Positions 42,385 to 57,431 of a DNA stretch of 64,000 nucleotides are shown here, one piece after another (within the stretch, counting starts at the first letter, position 1; each line of letters starts with the position of its first letter). This DNA is from Hymenobacter chitinivorans DSM 11115 (GTDB lineage: Bacteria; Bacteroidota; Bacteroidia; Cytophagales; Hymenobacteraceae): contig NZ_PGFA01000001.1 in the NCBI RefSeq assembly GCF_002797555.1, positions 248,001 to 312,000 on the forward strand, in the 5' to 3' direction. The position numbers were made by a program, and so were the translations under genes. The notes beneath the pieces are model-generated. The model was not told the origin of the DNA, searched no databases, and saw only the letters and a list, made by a program, of their open reading frames with translations.

Positions 42385-42930
42385 ACAGTGAAGGAGTGAA
42401 GTAGTGATGTAGTGAAGTAGGGCTGGAGCAAAGGTAGCCGATCCGGGGCGGTACACCGTGCGCGGGTCCGCCCAATGCTCATACGGCCGGATAATGCGAG
42501 AAAGCTGCCGTTACCAACGATGGTAAGAATGGTTTTCGGGCGTAGGATGGCACTGCGCACGAGTGTAAGGATAGGTTTCGCGCGAAAACCATCCCTACAC
42601 TCGTGCGCAAGGCTGGTTTTCGCGCGAAAGATGGCCCAGCACTCGTACGCAACGGTAGTTTTCGCGCGAAAGATGGCACTACACTGGAATGCAAGGGCAT
42701 CTTTCGGGCGTAGACCTCTTTCCAAACATTTGGAAGGCAGGTCTACGCCCGAAAGATGCCGTTCCAACTTTTTGAACGAAGGGTTACGCCCGTAAGATGG
42801 CGTTCCAACTTTCTGAATGGAGGGTTACAGGCGCCAACTGGCATTCAGAAAGTTGGAACGCCATCCTGCGACGCAAACGCGCCCTGAGAACAAAAAATCA
42901 CTCATTCGCTCCTTCGCTCCTTCACTACTC
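42385..42930. repeat. Palindromic array with about 42-bp period, bracketed by word-repeat arms
   Basis: This fills the 540-base gap between the barrel gene stop and cvfB. The left bracket (42386-42420) and right bracket (about 42893-42930) are GTGAAGGAGTGAAGTAG-type words in inverted orientation. Between 42531 and 42866 lie about sixteen half-units of 19-22 bases. Odd ones centre on TTTCGCGCGAAAGATGGC or its variant TCTACGCCCGAAAGATGCC, and even ones on ACTCGTGCGCAAGG or TTCCAACTTTCTGAATG. Neighbouring units form three long hairpins (about 42541-42613, 42698-42758 and 42797-42865). Open frames here, with a 14-residue repeat in several frames, reflect the period and are not convincing genes. 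Confidence 0.8.
42429..42436 (-). promoter_or_regulatory. -7 element of cvfB
   Basis: On the reverse strand TACCTTTG is an exact TAnnTTTG match, 44 bases before the cvfB start. The leader would then be just the left bracket of the array (CTTCACTACTTCACTCC-type words). Confidence 0.65.
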
Positions 42931-54017: not shown

Positions 54018-54539
54018 ATGAGCCGTGCATTTACCAAAGAGGACGACGTTCAGGCGCCGACCATCATTCCGCCCCGGGCCGCTTTGCCGCCCAATACGCC
54101 CAACTACGTCACGCCCCAGGGCCTGGAGTTGTTGCGCCAGGAACTAGTCACACTGGAAGCCGAGCGGGCCCAGGCCGAAGCCAACCGCGACAACGACGCC
54201 GACCGGACCCGCCTGCTGTCGGTCTACAACGGCCGCATCAGTGACCTGACCAGCCGGATTGCCAGCGCCAAAGTAGTCGACCCCAAAGCCCAGCCGCCCA
54301 AAGAAGTGCGCTTCGGGGCCACCGTCACGCTGCGCACTCAGAGCGGCGGCAAAGTTGGTTTTGAGCGTAAATTCACCATCGTGGGCGTGGATGAAGCTTC
54401 CGTAGCCGCCGGTAAAGTAGCCTTCGTCGCGCCTATTGCCCGTGCTGTGGTGGGGGCCAAGCTGGGCAAAACGGTCACGCTGAAACTGGGTCCGAAAGAG
54501 GAAGTGGTGGAAGTAGCCGCTATTTCCTACGAGGGGTAA
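54018..54539 (+). CDS. GreA/GreB-family transcription factor
   Basis: A 173-residue protein starting MSRAFTKEDD, typical of the GreB-like group. The N-terminal coiled coil (LLRQELVTLEAERAQAEANR) leads to the C-terminal FKBP-like domain (VTLRTQSGGKVGFERKFTIV, then VAPIARAVVGAKLGKTVTLK). Gre factors rescue backtracked RNA polymerase by stimulating transcript cleavage. This one is shorter than GreA in the coiled coil and may be a GreB-like or Rnk-like paralogue. It stands alone. Confidence 0.88.
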   Translation: MSRAFTKEDDVQAPTIIPPRAALPPNTPNYVTPQGLELLRQELVTLEAERAQAEANRDNDADRTRLLSVYNGRISDLTSRIASAKVVDPKAQPPKEVRFGATVTLRTQSGGKVGFERKFTIVGVDEASVAAGKVAFVAPIARAVVGAKLGKTVTLKLGPKEEVVEVAAISYEG

Positions 54540-54560: not shown

Positions 54561-54640
54561 AGAACGTCATGTCGAGCCCAACGAGACATCTTGCGGGCAG
54601 CCGTTATCTATTCTGTCATCCTGCACTTTGCGAAGAACCG
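54561..54640. repeat. REP-like palindrome remnant
   Basis: AGAACGTCATGTCGAGC then GAGACATCTTGC (54561-54593) are variants of the family seen at 4503-4659, followed by TGTCATCCTGCACTTTGCG, a word that also resembles eroded repeat. The 405-base gap 54540-54944 holds this, the array at 54642, and a terminator. There is no gene. Confidence 0.65.
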
Positions 54641-54641
54641 G

Positions 54642-54800
54642 CTCTAGTAGACAAGCCTGGTAAAAATGCCGAGTCTGTCTACTGGCTGTAGTAGACAGAC
54701 TTGATAATTAGTACAGTTTGTATACATGTCGTAGTAGGCAAGCTCCACATTTCGAGCAGGTTTGTATACAAGTGGTAGTAGCCAGACTTGGTCTGTGGTC
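54642..54800. repeat. Second palindromic array with about 44-bp period
   Basis: Four units start at 54642, 54686, 54729 and 54773, that is at spacings of 44, 43 and 44 bases. Each begins CTGTAGTAGACAGACTTG or a variant (CTCTAGTAGACAAGCC, TCGTAGTAGGCAAGC, TGGTAGTAGCCAGACTTG). The second half of a unit carries an inverted version (GAGTCTGTCTACTGG, CAGTTTGTATACATG, CAGGTTTGTATACAAG), so neighbouring halves pair. The sequence is unrelated to the array at 42531, but the period and half-unit design are the same. Confidence 0.7.
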
Positions 54801-54885
54801 AATGGCTTCGCACCTGGCTTCCTCCCGTCGTGGGGTAAAGGAGGAAGGTCCTTCGCTCTGCTCAGGGTGATAGGTGGGAAAATAC

Positions 54886-54920
54886 AAAAAGGCCCTTCAC
54901 TGCGCAGTGAAGGGCCTTTT
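54886..54920. terminator. Terminator between GreA/B-family and M1 genes
   Basis: AAAAAGGCCCTTCACTGCG pairs with CAGTGAAGGGCCTTTT around a very small loop. A/T tracts on both sides let it serve both convergent genes. Confidence 0.88.
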
Positions 54921-54944: not shown

Positions 54945-57431
54945 CTACTTGGCCTGCTGAATTTCTTCCACGGCTTTGTCGATGGCCTGCTGGGCTTGCG
55001 GTACGTTGGGGCCGGTAGTTTTGCGCTGCTTCACGCTTTGCAGCAGGCCAATGAGGGGCTCGGCAGCGCCCTGGGGCTTAAACTGGATGGCCAAATCCCG
55101 CACCCGCTCCACGCCCTGGCTGAAGTTGGCCGGGTCGTCGAGGCGCACGAGCATATTCGACAGACCTTCGAGCAGGCCGAAGCGAGCCTGCAGCGGGGCC
55201 GCGTCGAACTTGTCGCGCACGAAATTCCACTGCGCGTCGCCGCCCTGGGCCGCGTACACGCCGATGACGGCGGCCAGGATGTTCTGATTTTCCGTCGTTT
55301 CCAGCGACTTGGCCTGGGTCAGGGCCTTGGCCGGAGCCACGGCGGCCAGGCCACTCAGCGCCGCCCCACTCACCTGGTACGACTCATTCTTGAGCTGCTG
55401 GGTGAAGAGCTTTTCGTCCTTCTTGTCCTTGAGCTTGGCCAGCGCTTCCAGGGCGTTGGCCCGCACCGAGTTCTGCGGATCGGCGGCGGCCAGCTTGCGT
55501 AGCACCGGGGCCGCCGCTTTGGCCGTGGCCTTGTTCTCCAGGTTCAGGGCCTCAATGGCCACGGAGCGCAGGTTGTAGAACTTGTCGGACAGCGCTTTTA
55601 CCAGCAAGGTCCGGGCCGCGGCATCGTCCTGCTTGTCCTTGGCGGCCATAATGGCCTCGCGCCGGTCCAGAAACAGCGGGGCGTGGCTGTACTGGTACAC
55701 GTAGTCGGCCAGGGGCTTGTTGTCCTTTTTCAGCCACACCATGAGCTTGGTGGCGTCCACGTTGACGAGCTCGGGCTTGGCGCTGGCCGCAAACTGAAAG
55801 GTTTCGGTGGCCTGGCGCATCATCACCATGTGGCGCTCGGGCTTGCCGTTCACGTACACATCCACGGCCAGGGGCAGCTGAAATACGGGGCCTTCCTGGG
55901 TTTGCTTCAGCGTCACGCTCTGCACCTTTTTGGCCGCGTCCCAGCTGTAGTCAATCGTGACTTCGGGGTGGCCGGCGCCGTAGTACCACTGGTTGAAAAA
56001 CCAGTTCAGGTCGCGGCCCGAGGCGGCTTCCATGGCCAGGCGCAACTGGTGGGCTTCGCCGTTGCCCAGCGCGTTTTGCTTCAGATACTGATTCAGGCCG
56101 GTGAAGTAGACCTCGTCGCCGAGGTAGGTGCGCAGCATGTCCTGAATGGCGCCGCCTTTCTGGTAGGTTACCCCGTCGAACATTTCCTCCTTGTCGCCAT
56201 AGTGGAAGCGCACGAGGTTTTTCGAGTAGTTGTTGGGGTTGTTGAGGTAGTTGCGGATGTACTGCGCCCGGTGCGCGTCGGCGGCTTCCTTGCCGTACTT
56301 GTGCTCGGCCCACAAGGCCTCGCTCATGTCGGCCATCGACTCATTCACCGTCAGATTGCTCCAGCTTTCGGCCGTCACGTAGTCGCCAAACCACTGGTGA
56401 AACAGCTCGTGGGCAATGACGGACTGGTTGTTGGCGTACTCCCGGTCGAGCAGTTCGCGGGCATTCATCTGCAGAAACTCGCCGTGCAGCGTAGCCGTGG
56501 TGTTTTCCATGGCCCCGCTCACGTAGTCCCGGGCCACAATCTGGGCGTACTTATTCCAGGGAAAATCCACGCCGAGGCGCTTGGAAAAGAACTCCATCAT
56601 TTCGGGCGTGTCACCGAAAATCTGCTTGGCGAAGGGCGCGTACTTGGGCTCCAGATAGTAGGTCACCGGCTTGTCGCGCCACTTGTCCTCGTACACCTTA
56701 AAGTCGCCCACGGCCATCATGAACAGGTAGGGCGCGTGGGGCAATTCCATCTTCCAGGTGTCGGTGCGCAAGCCGGCCCCGGCGGGAGTGGAGCCCGTCA
56801 TGCGCCCATTGCTGAGCGTGACGTACTTGGCGGGCACGGTCATGCTGATTTCGGAAGTCGTCTTCTGGTTGGGCCGGTCGATGGTCGGAAACCAGCAGGA
56901 GGAGCCCTCCGTCTCGCCCTGGGTCCAGATCTGCACGGGCTTGCCTTTCACGGCGCTGTCGGGGTTGATGAAATACAGGCCCTTGGCGTCGGTAATGGCC
57001 GCGCTGCCTTTCACCTTGAGCTCGTCGGGCTTGGCCGTGTACTCGATGTAGACCGTGTAGGGCGTGCCCACCGGCATCGTCCGGCCCAGGTTGATGCGTA
57101 GGTTGTTTTGGTCGGCGTAGTCGTACTTGAGCGGGGTCTGGGTCGTGCCTTCCACCAAAGCCACAGTCTTGATGTCGAAGCCCTTGGCGTCGAGGCGCAG
57201 GGAATCGGTGGCGTAGGCATAAGGCTTGAGCGTCAGCCAGGCTTTGCCGTTGAGGTGGCGCTTGGCGTAGTCGAAGCCGACATCCAGCTTGGTGTGCACC
57301 AGCGCGTTGATTTTGGTGTCGGTGGCGCGGTAGGGGAGTTCGGGCTCGGCGGCCGTCAGGCGGGGCGCTTGTTGGGCCCAGCTGGCCGTAGCGGCCAATA
57401 AGCTGACGCTCAGGATCAGGGTTTTCTTCAC
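54945..57431 (-). CDS. M1-family aminopeptidase
   Basis: An 828-residue secreted metallopeptidase. Signal peptide (LILSVSLLAATASWAQQAP), N-terminal beta domain, gluzincin domain with SGAMENTTATLHGEFLQM (GAMEN motif, exopeptidase) and the zinc site VIAHELFHQWFGDYVTAESW then NLTVNESMADMSEALWAEHK (HExxH and downstream Glu). The C-terminal third (about 560-828) is helical, with HEAT-like repeats (APVLRKLAAADPQNSVRANA). It trims N-terminal residues from peptides in the periplasm or outside. Length fits the bacterial secreted group. Confidence 0.95.
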   Translation of the reverse strand: MKKTLILSVSLLAATASWAQQAPRLTAAEPELPYRATDTKINALVHTKLDVGFDYAKRHLNGKAWLTLKPYAYATDSLRLDAKGFDIKTVALVEGTTQTPLKYDYADQNNLRINLGRTMPVGTPYTVYIEYTAKPDELKVKGSAAITDAKGLYFINPDSAVKGKPVQIWTQGETEGSSCWFPTIDRPNQKTTSEISMTVPAKYVTLSNGRMTGSTPAGAGLRTDTWKMELPHAPYLFMMAVGDFKVYEDKWRDKPVTYYLEPKYAPFAKQIFGDTPEMMEFFSKRLGVDFPWNKYAQIVARDYVSGAMENTTATLHGEFLQMNARELLDREYANNQSVIAHELFHQWFGDYVTAESWSNLTVNESMADMSEALWAEHKYGKEAADAHRAQYIRNYLNNPNNYSKNLVRFHYGDKEEMFDGVTYQKGGAIQDMLRTYLGDEVYFTGLNQYLKQNALGNGEAHQLRLAMEAASGRDLNWFFNQWYYGAGHPEVTIDYSWDAAKKVQSVTLKQTQEGPVFQLPLAVDVYVNGKPERHMVMMRQATETFQFAASAKPELVNVDATKLMVWLKKDNKPLADYVYQYSHAPLFLDRREAIMAAKDKQDDAAARTLLVKALSDKFYNLRSVAIEALNLENKATAKAAAPVLRKLAAADPQNSVRANALEALAKLKDKKDEKLFTQQLKNESYQVSGAALSGLAAVAPAKALTQAKSLETTENQNILAAVIGVYAAQGGDAQWNFVRDKFDAAPLQARFGLLEGLSNMLVRLDDPANFSQGVERVRDLAIQFKPQGAAEPLIGLLQSVKQRKTTGPNVPQAQQAIDKAVEEIQQAK

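Follow-up and report, generated by a model that had tools for sequence, protein, structure and literature searches.

What kind of element is an intergenic array that keeps its unit length, and what does the length answer to? We examined this question for positions 54642-54800 of the window, meaning the whole 64,000-nucleotide stretch of DNA analysed. The initial annotation had described units starting 44, 43 and 44 bases apart there, each with an inverted second half, and had joined them with another array of the window into one design. It had proposed that the length and not the sequence is maintained, by a copying machinery, by helical phase or by a protein binding every 21 bases.

Half-sites and setting of the window array

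Read from the sequence, the unit starts were marked by TAGTAG at 54644, 54688, 54731 and 54775, in steps of 44, 43 and 44 bp. Autocorrelation of 54641-54805 peaked only at lags 44 (0.47) and 43 (0.40), with other lags at 0.13-0.35, and the inversion centres lay at 54664.5, 54686.5, 54729.5 and 54773.5, that is, 22 and 43-44 bp apart. The spacing and the half-unit inversion described earlier were thus borne out. The array is built from seven half-sites, each an 8-bp copy of the word GTAGACAA/TTGTCTAC, whose orientation alternates and whose steps are 28/16/27/16/28/16. Six of them match GTAGACAA with at most one mismatch (one exact, five with one mismatch) and the seventh has two:

54647..54654, + strand, half-site 1, GTAGACAA, exact
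54675..54682, - strand, half-site 2, CTGTCTAC, one mismatch
54691..54698, + strand, half-site 3, GTAGACAG, one mismatch
54718..54725, - strand, half-site 4, TTGTATAC, one mismatch
54734..54741, + strand, half-site 5, GTAGGCAA, one mismatch
54762..54769, - strand, half-site 6, TTGTATAC, one mismatch
54778..54785, + strand, half-site 7, GTAGCCAG, two mismatches, degenerate end of the array

We defined an array by alternating inverted half-sites of one word with a total period of 41-46 bp, and the window array shows this pattern. Alternating chains of at least four half-sites numbered 15 in 883 real intergenic regions, the window array included, as against none in one shuffle.

The array sits between convergent GreA/B and M1 genes, both of which end towards it:

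54018..54539, + strand, GreA/GreB-type transcription elongation factor (PF01272, 1.1e-15), 3' end facing the array
54945..57431, - strand, M1-family metallopeptidase with HEAT repeats (PF01433, 2.9e-44), 3' end facing the array
54614..54872, no strand, copy of a dispersed inverted-repeat element with arms TGTCATCCTGAGC.../...GCTCAGGATGACA
54887..54920, no strand, terminator-like hairpin AAAAGGCCCTTCACTGCGCAGTGAAGGGCCTTTT, kept in the sister genome G051, which has no array

The element copy measures 259 bp instead of the usual 158-160 bp or so because the array fills its interior. Dozens of copies of this dispersed element of about 158 bp (arms TGTCATCCTGAGC...GCTCAGGATGACA) occur in the window's genome, with an inner AAAGCCCTTT/AAAGGGCTTT palindrome, and shorter relatives of about 90-100 bp (CGTCATGCTGAGC...) are likewise present. 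A transposon and IS test placed only the flanks in the dispersed element, and the array did not recur in other copies of it. The units are not part of a recognisable transposon, an outcome that the initial annotation had named as a refutation, even though the dispersed inverted-repeat element encloses the copy in the window. The array was absent at this locus in G051, where the flanking DNA is collinear, and it was also absent from genome G001.

A matching regulator locus

A DNA search refined by a whole-genome pattern search found one other place in the genome with the window word, C1:1096901-1097024, and this locus and the window ranked top in the pattern search. Its three units follow one another at exactly 44 bp (steps 28/16/28/16/28), and immediately downstream of them, at C1:1097112, is a gene for a 202-aa XRE-type HTH protein. 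The word upstream of this gene is the window word GTAGACAA, with the window sites being more degenerate. Among half-site models, those of L152 (10.8 bits), L146, the member in the window's own genome (8.8 bits), and L147 (8.5 bits) fitted the window array best, and the next model reached 5.3 bits. Judged by its words (GTAGACAA, in part GTATACAA), the window array appears to have the same specificity as the C1:1097112 member and the relatives closest to that member. With the L146 model, the window half-sites scored about half as high as the member's own sites (8.8 versus 17.9 bits); given such half-scoring sites, binding of the regulator to the window array may be weak. No HTH gene of the family adjoins the window array, where the only neighbours are the GreA/B and M1 genes, and with no family gene directly downstream it is an "orphan" array, not a complete cassette.

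Taken at the level of sequence, the window array is very probably an operator array like those that precede the genes of a lineage-expanded XRE-type HTH family. As an orphan, it is most likely either a relict, left over from a regulator locus that was lost or rearranged, or a copy that has been displaced.

We weighed this reading against REP/BIME-type elements, which are hairpin repeats that owe their spread to a RAYT (Y1) transposase and resemble the arrays in being intergenic pairs of inverted repeats. The window units contain GTAG, inverted, and the genome has two Y1_Tnp genes; at L026 a Y1-type (RAYT-like) transposase gene is flanked by inverted GTAGTAGCGCGAACTTTGTAGTTCGCG pairs. However, the RAYT-flanking repeats differ in word and geometry, and the RAYT loci do not have the window unit. 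The window word stands at two genome places only, which is not a dispersed many-copy family, and the arrays are not one dispersed word but are tied to regulator genes, lying upstream of HTH genes and not of transposase genes. A REP/BIME origin is accordingly extremely unlikely, and we rejected a mobile-repeat reading in general, since the array core is not dispersed and is missing from the RAYT loci.

The inverted halves could also form hairpins of a structured RNA or a terminator between the convergent genes. The strand indeed folds at -59.1 kcal/mol, compared to -42.7 kcal/mol for shuffles (z -3.98), but any inverted-operator array folds likewise. In the C1:1097112 array, moreover, the 20-bp interiors are not complementary within the unit, and the locus already has a terminator hairpin of its own at 54887-54920, which is kept in the sister without the array. 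We consider an RNA or terminator function very unlikely.

The regulator family and its arrays

The XRE-type HTH family of C1:1097112 has 19 members in the window's genome, 13 in G051 and 19 in G001. With one query, it was detected in 55 of 120 genomes of the genus; among 291 genomes drawn from the order it occurred in 21, of which 16 belong to the same genus. Named records also place the family in Hymenobacter, to which it is nearly confined. The C1:1097112 protein scored above the curated cut-offs of the HTH_3/HTH_31 profiles (PF13560, 32.0 bits with a cut-off of 27; PF01381, 29.4 bits with a cut-off of 23), and 24 and 22 of 27 family members matched these profiles at E<=0.001. In a confident AlphaFold2 model of the protein (pLDDT 88.8), a linker joins the HTH domain to three long helices that form a C-terminal bundle. 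Its N-terminus has a lambda-repressor-like HTH fold (helices 10-60), with PDB profile matches down to 5.9e-9 and weak Foldseek E-values (0.2 and above). This part matches 434-repressor-like and controller proteins, with PDB hits to 434 repressor domains and structural hits to C.Esp1396I and C.BclI. Only the HTH part matched in the structure search, in which the three-helix bundle found no matching fold, and searches against known defence, phage and NCBI family names gave only generic HTH matches at the N-terminus. A viral origin of the regulator was rejected, as a search of IMG/VR with the peptide patterns of the C1:1097112 member found no relative. At C1:476803-477027 (L210), the window's genome contains a truncated remnant of a family gene, which suggests that family members decay. 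In literature searches of partial coverage, we came across neither these arrays nor the HTH family.

Arrays of the same design with other words lie upstream of other family members; the words include GGTAGGCA, GGTATACA, GGTAAACA, TGTGGGGT, TGTAACA, TTGTCTCC, TGTCACAA, GTAGACGA and more. They consist of alternating inverted half-sites with steps of about 28-30 plus 14-16 bp, in total 41-44 bp, and are located upstream of the genes, often reaching up to 10-20 bp from the start codon. Gene calls were made with a home-made hexamer caller; about a fifth of the genome was read directly, and for the remainder we relied on pattern and protein searches. At a spacing of 43/44 bp, direct 7-mer repeats numbered 223 in 74 family upstream regions (3.0 per sequence) versus 61 in 553 others (0.11). 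Alternating chains of at least four half-sites were found in 38 of the 74 family upstream regions versus 0 of 222 shuffles, counts that overstate independence because the family members are related. Downstream of the same family genes such chains occurred in 1 of 72 regions, and upstream of other genes in 5 of 605, four of these five being TGTCACAA arrays. The first loci were already known when the chain detector was designed, which affects all but two later sets: 7 of 21 family members unused before had chains, as did 4 of 4 further new loci in named Hymenobacter records, which had been picked as relatives of one subfamily. For the other 36 of the 74 members the detector counted three half-sites at most, and many of these members have one dyad only.

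These arrays agree with the earlier idea that length is kept while the word is not, in that many HTH members have arrays of one design in different words; the period, however, is not a universal constant. The repeat length varied by member among 41, 42, 43 and 44 bp (15, 30, 31 and 40 counts, respectively), with the GFV-type subfamily nearest C1:1097112 mostly at 44 bp. The initial annotation had expected a unique array to tell against it, but further arrays of the same design exist, solo copies included. We also compared the words with the proteins. Word distance correlated with that of the recognition helix (Mantel rho 0.31, p=0.0005), and the value for the rest of the protein was 0.29; since the word can be predicted almost as well from the remaining protein sequence, we claim no helix-specific code separate from common descent.

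Half-sites exceeded their flanks in conservation in three species pairs. In the regulator promoter with TTGTCTCC (L196 versus L195), 24/24 half-site positions were conserved compared to 57/86 in the flanks (p=0.00022), a count that leaves out one half-site, which is TTGTCTCT in the window's genome. The promoters of the TGTCACAA regulator (L205 versus L204) gave 33/42 versus 49/116 (p=4e-5), and a gene-less TGTCACAA array (L094 versus L269) gave 31/33 versus 178/278 (p=0.00016). The genes on either side of the L094 array encode a membrane protein and a short-chain dehydrogenase, and the same two genes flank it in the second species. The array has four half-sites in the window's genome, and extra ones are inserted at the same place in G075; by this comparison, half-sites seem to be added stepwise while the array design stays.

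Arrays without a family gene beside them were found at several places. The gene-less TGTCACAA arrays are at L074:5022-5181 and L094:6690-7025. Arrays with this word were observed in the promoters of genes for a short-chain dehydrogenase, an M1 peptidase and a 2Fe-2S oxidoreductase subunit, the last in G075 (L094:6690-7025; L074:5022-5181; L269; L272:1460-1540). The TGTCACAA promoters form a candidate regulon, as judged from the word that they have in common with the promoter of family member L205/L204/L273. A gene-less GTAGACGACC array at C6:82449-82572 (L226) has three 44-bp units with the word GGTAGACGACC and, like the window array, lies between convergent genes. Its word is the operator word of the Hymenobacter lucidus family member L300 and was matched by none of the words recovered for family members in the window's genome. 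A GTAGAAGACC array at C1:3181946-3182025 is a further candidate for an array without a family gene. At L144:8647-9060, not beside a family gene, we observed an array of eleven CCGTGAGG half-sites in steps of 11/30 bp (41 bp) that contains TGAGGAATCCTCA palindromes.

Such solo arrays raise the alternative that the window array is a functional target in trans, at which a regulator encoded elsewhere is titrated or affects the neighbours, perhaps by forming a roadblock where the two genes converge. The matching regulator is still present in the genome, and the gene-less TGTCACAA arrays sit in promoters, one of them conserved between species together with its half-sites. At the window, however, both flanking genes end at the array, leaving no promoter to control; the half-sites are degenerate, and the sister species lacks the array. 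We regard a trans function there as rather unlikely.

The operator reading suggests how such arrays would work. The family proteins combine an N-terminal lambda/434-repressor-like HTH with an uncharacterised three-helix C-terminal domain, and dimers or higher oligomers would bind successive inverted half-sites cooperatively. The regulators would repress their own promoters and, in the case of some words, would control other promoters in trans as well. The protein would set the spacing of the array and its specificity would set the word, which would explain why the length is kept and the word is not. The window array, having no regulator gene or promoter beside it, may still bind the C1:1097112 protein in trans. 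Among the three causes first offered, protein binding fits best, but not at every 21 bases: the half-unit of the window array is 22 bp (44/2), arising from alternating 28- and 16-bp steps.

A separate 21-bp class, known systems and meaning

The intergenic autocorrelation that the initial annotation had called for did yield many arrays with different words and one period, but in a class separate from the window array. In 430 intergenic regions (144 kb), 12 had at least 60% identity over 84 bp, versus none in five shuffles; the period was 21/42 in 10 of them and 14 in 2. The class includes the window's other array, 42598-42828. Intergenic arrays with an exact 21-bp period (42/63/84) were observed at this position and at L066:12665-12931, L068:13414-13790, L073:4031-4272, L083:16836-17032, L092:15454-15648, L099:15465-15659 and L100:1994-2147. 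Their words are mostly unrelated, one word being common to L073 and L099, and we found no common neighbour gene, the neighbours not being HTH genes. At two loci in G051, the place was conserved while the words had drifted and the copy number had changed. With 20 kb sampled from each of 20 other species, the class was clearly seen in only one. A coding reading was rejected because all sampled arrays were intergenic by the hexamer caller; the open frames in them arise because the period is a multiple of three. Upstream of ordinary genes, direct repeats have sharp peaks at 21, 42, 63 and 84, whereas upstream of the HTH family they peak at 41-44. The 21-bp class is real and distinct from the 41-44 bp class. 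The two window arrays are consequently not one design: the array at 42.6-42.8 kb has a 41-42 bp period and falls in the class that keeps an exact 21/42 period and has no HTH genes as neighbours, and we rejected its unity with the window array on period, word and neighbours.

The 21-bp class is also what speaks for a length-keeping copying machinery or slippage that makes all 42-44 bp arrays with no binding protein involved, since it keeps an exact period with unrelated words while copy number and words change between species. Its peaks, however, are separate from those at 41-44, where the spacing follows HTH-family membership and the half-sites are under constraint. A copying machinery is not needed for the 43-44 bp class, and as its cause we find it highly improbable.

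Among known systems, the operators of lambda/434-type repressors (cI, OR/OL) resemble the arrays in that an HTH_3-fold repressor has several dyads in a row upstream of its own gene. The Hymenobacter half-sites, however, are 28 and 16 bp apart, as opposed to a compact 14-17 bp operator, and the family has a helical-bundle C-terminus and 13-19 paralogues with different words. Restriction-modification C proteins (C.AhdI, C.Esp1396I) share the XRE fold and autoregulate via two adjacent dyads bound as a tetramer, whereas the Hymenobacter arrays have 4-9 half-sites and a 41-44 bp repeat, the proteins have an extra C-terminal domain, and no restriction genes were noted beside the members examined. 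Plasmid iterons (repeats of about 19-22 bp) are also regularly phased protein-binding repeats, as the Hymenobacter arrays putatively are, but the latter have alternating inverted half-sites upstream of chromosomal regulator genes and no replication initiator. In Caulobacter, RtrA, RtrB and TgrL belong to a genus-level radiation of paralogous XRE regulators with up to seven per species, and the regulators that were tested recognise similar motifs, with binding sites that overlap for the most part (PMC10688885). The Hymenobacter family is a comparable genus-level XRE radiation, but its words differ widely while the spacing is kept.

Tentatively, and with somewhat less than even confidence, we propose that Hymenobacter harbours a fast-diversifying system of self-contained units of regulator plus operator array in which the 41-44 bp oligomer geometry is frozen, the word drifts with the protein, and orphan arrays are left behind when a regulator is lost. 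If so, orphan arrays would record past and present regulators in the manner of fossils and might also serve as sinks for their binding. The operator reading itself would explain a class of conspicuous intergenic repeats that could easily be mistaken for mobile or CRISPR-like ones. Under it, the dozens of paralogous regulators, each with an array, would form a natural table of protein-to-DNA-word pairs in a fixed geometry, as every array offers one half-site in several aligned copies, and the XRE recognition code and the separate evolution of spacing and specificity would become directly testable.
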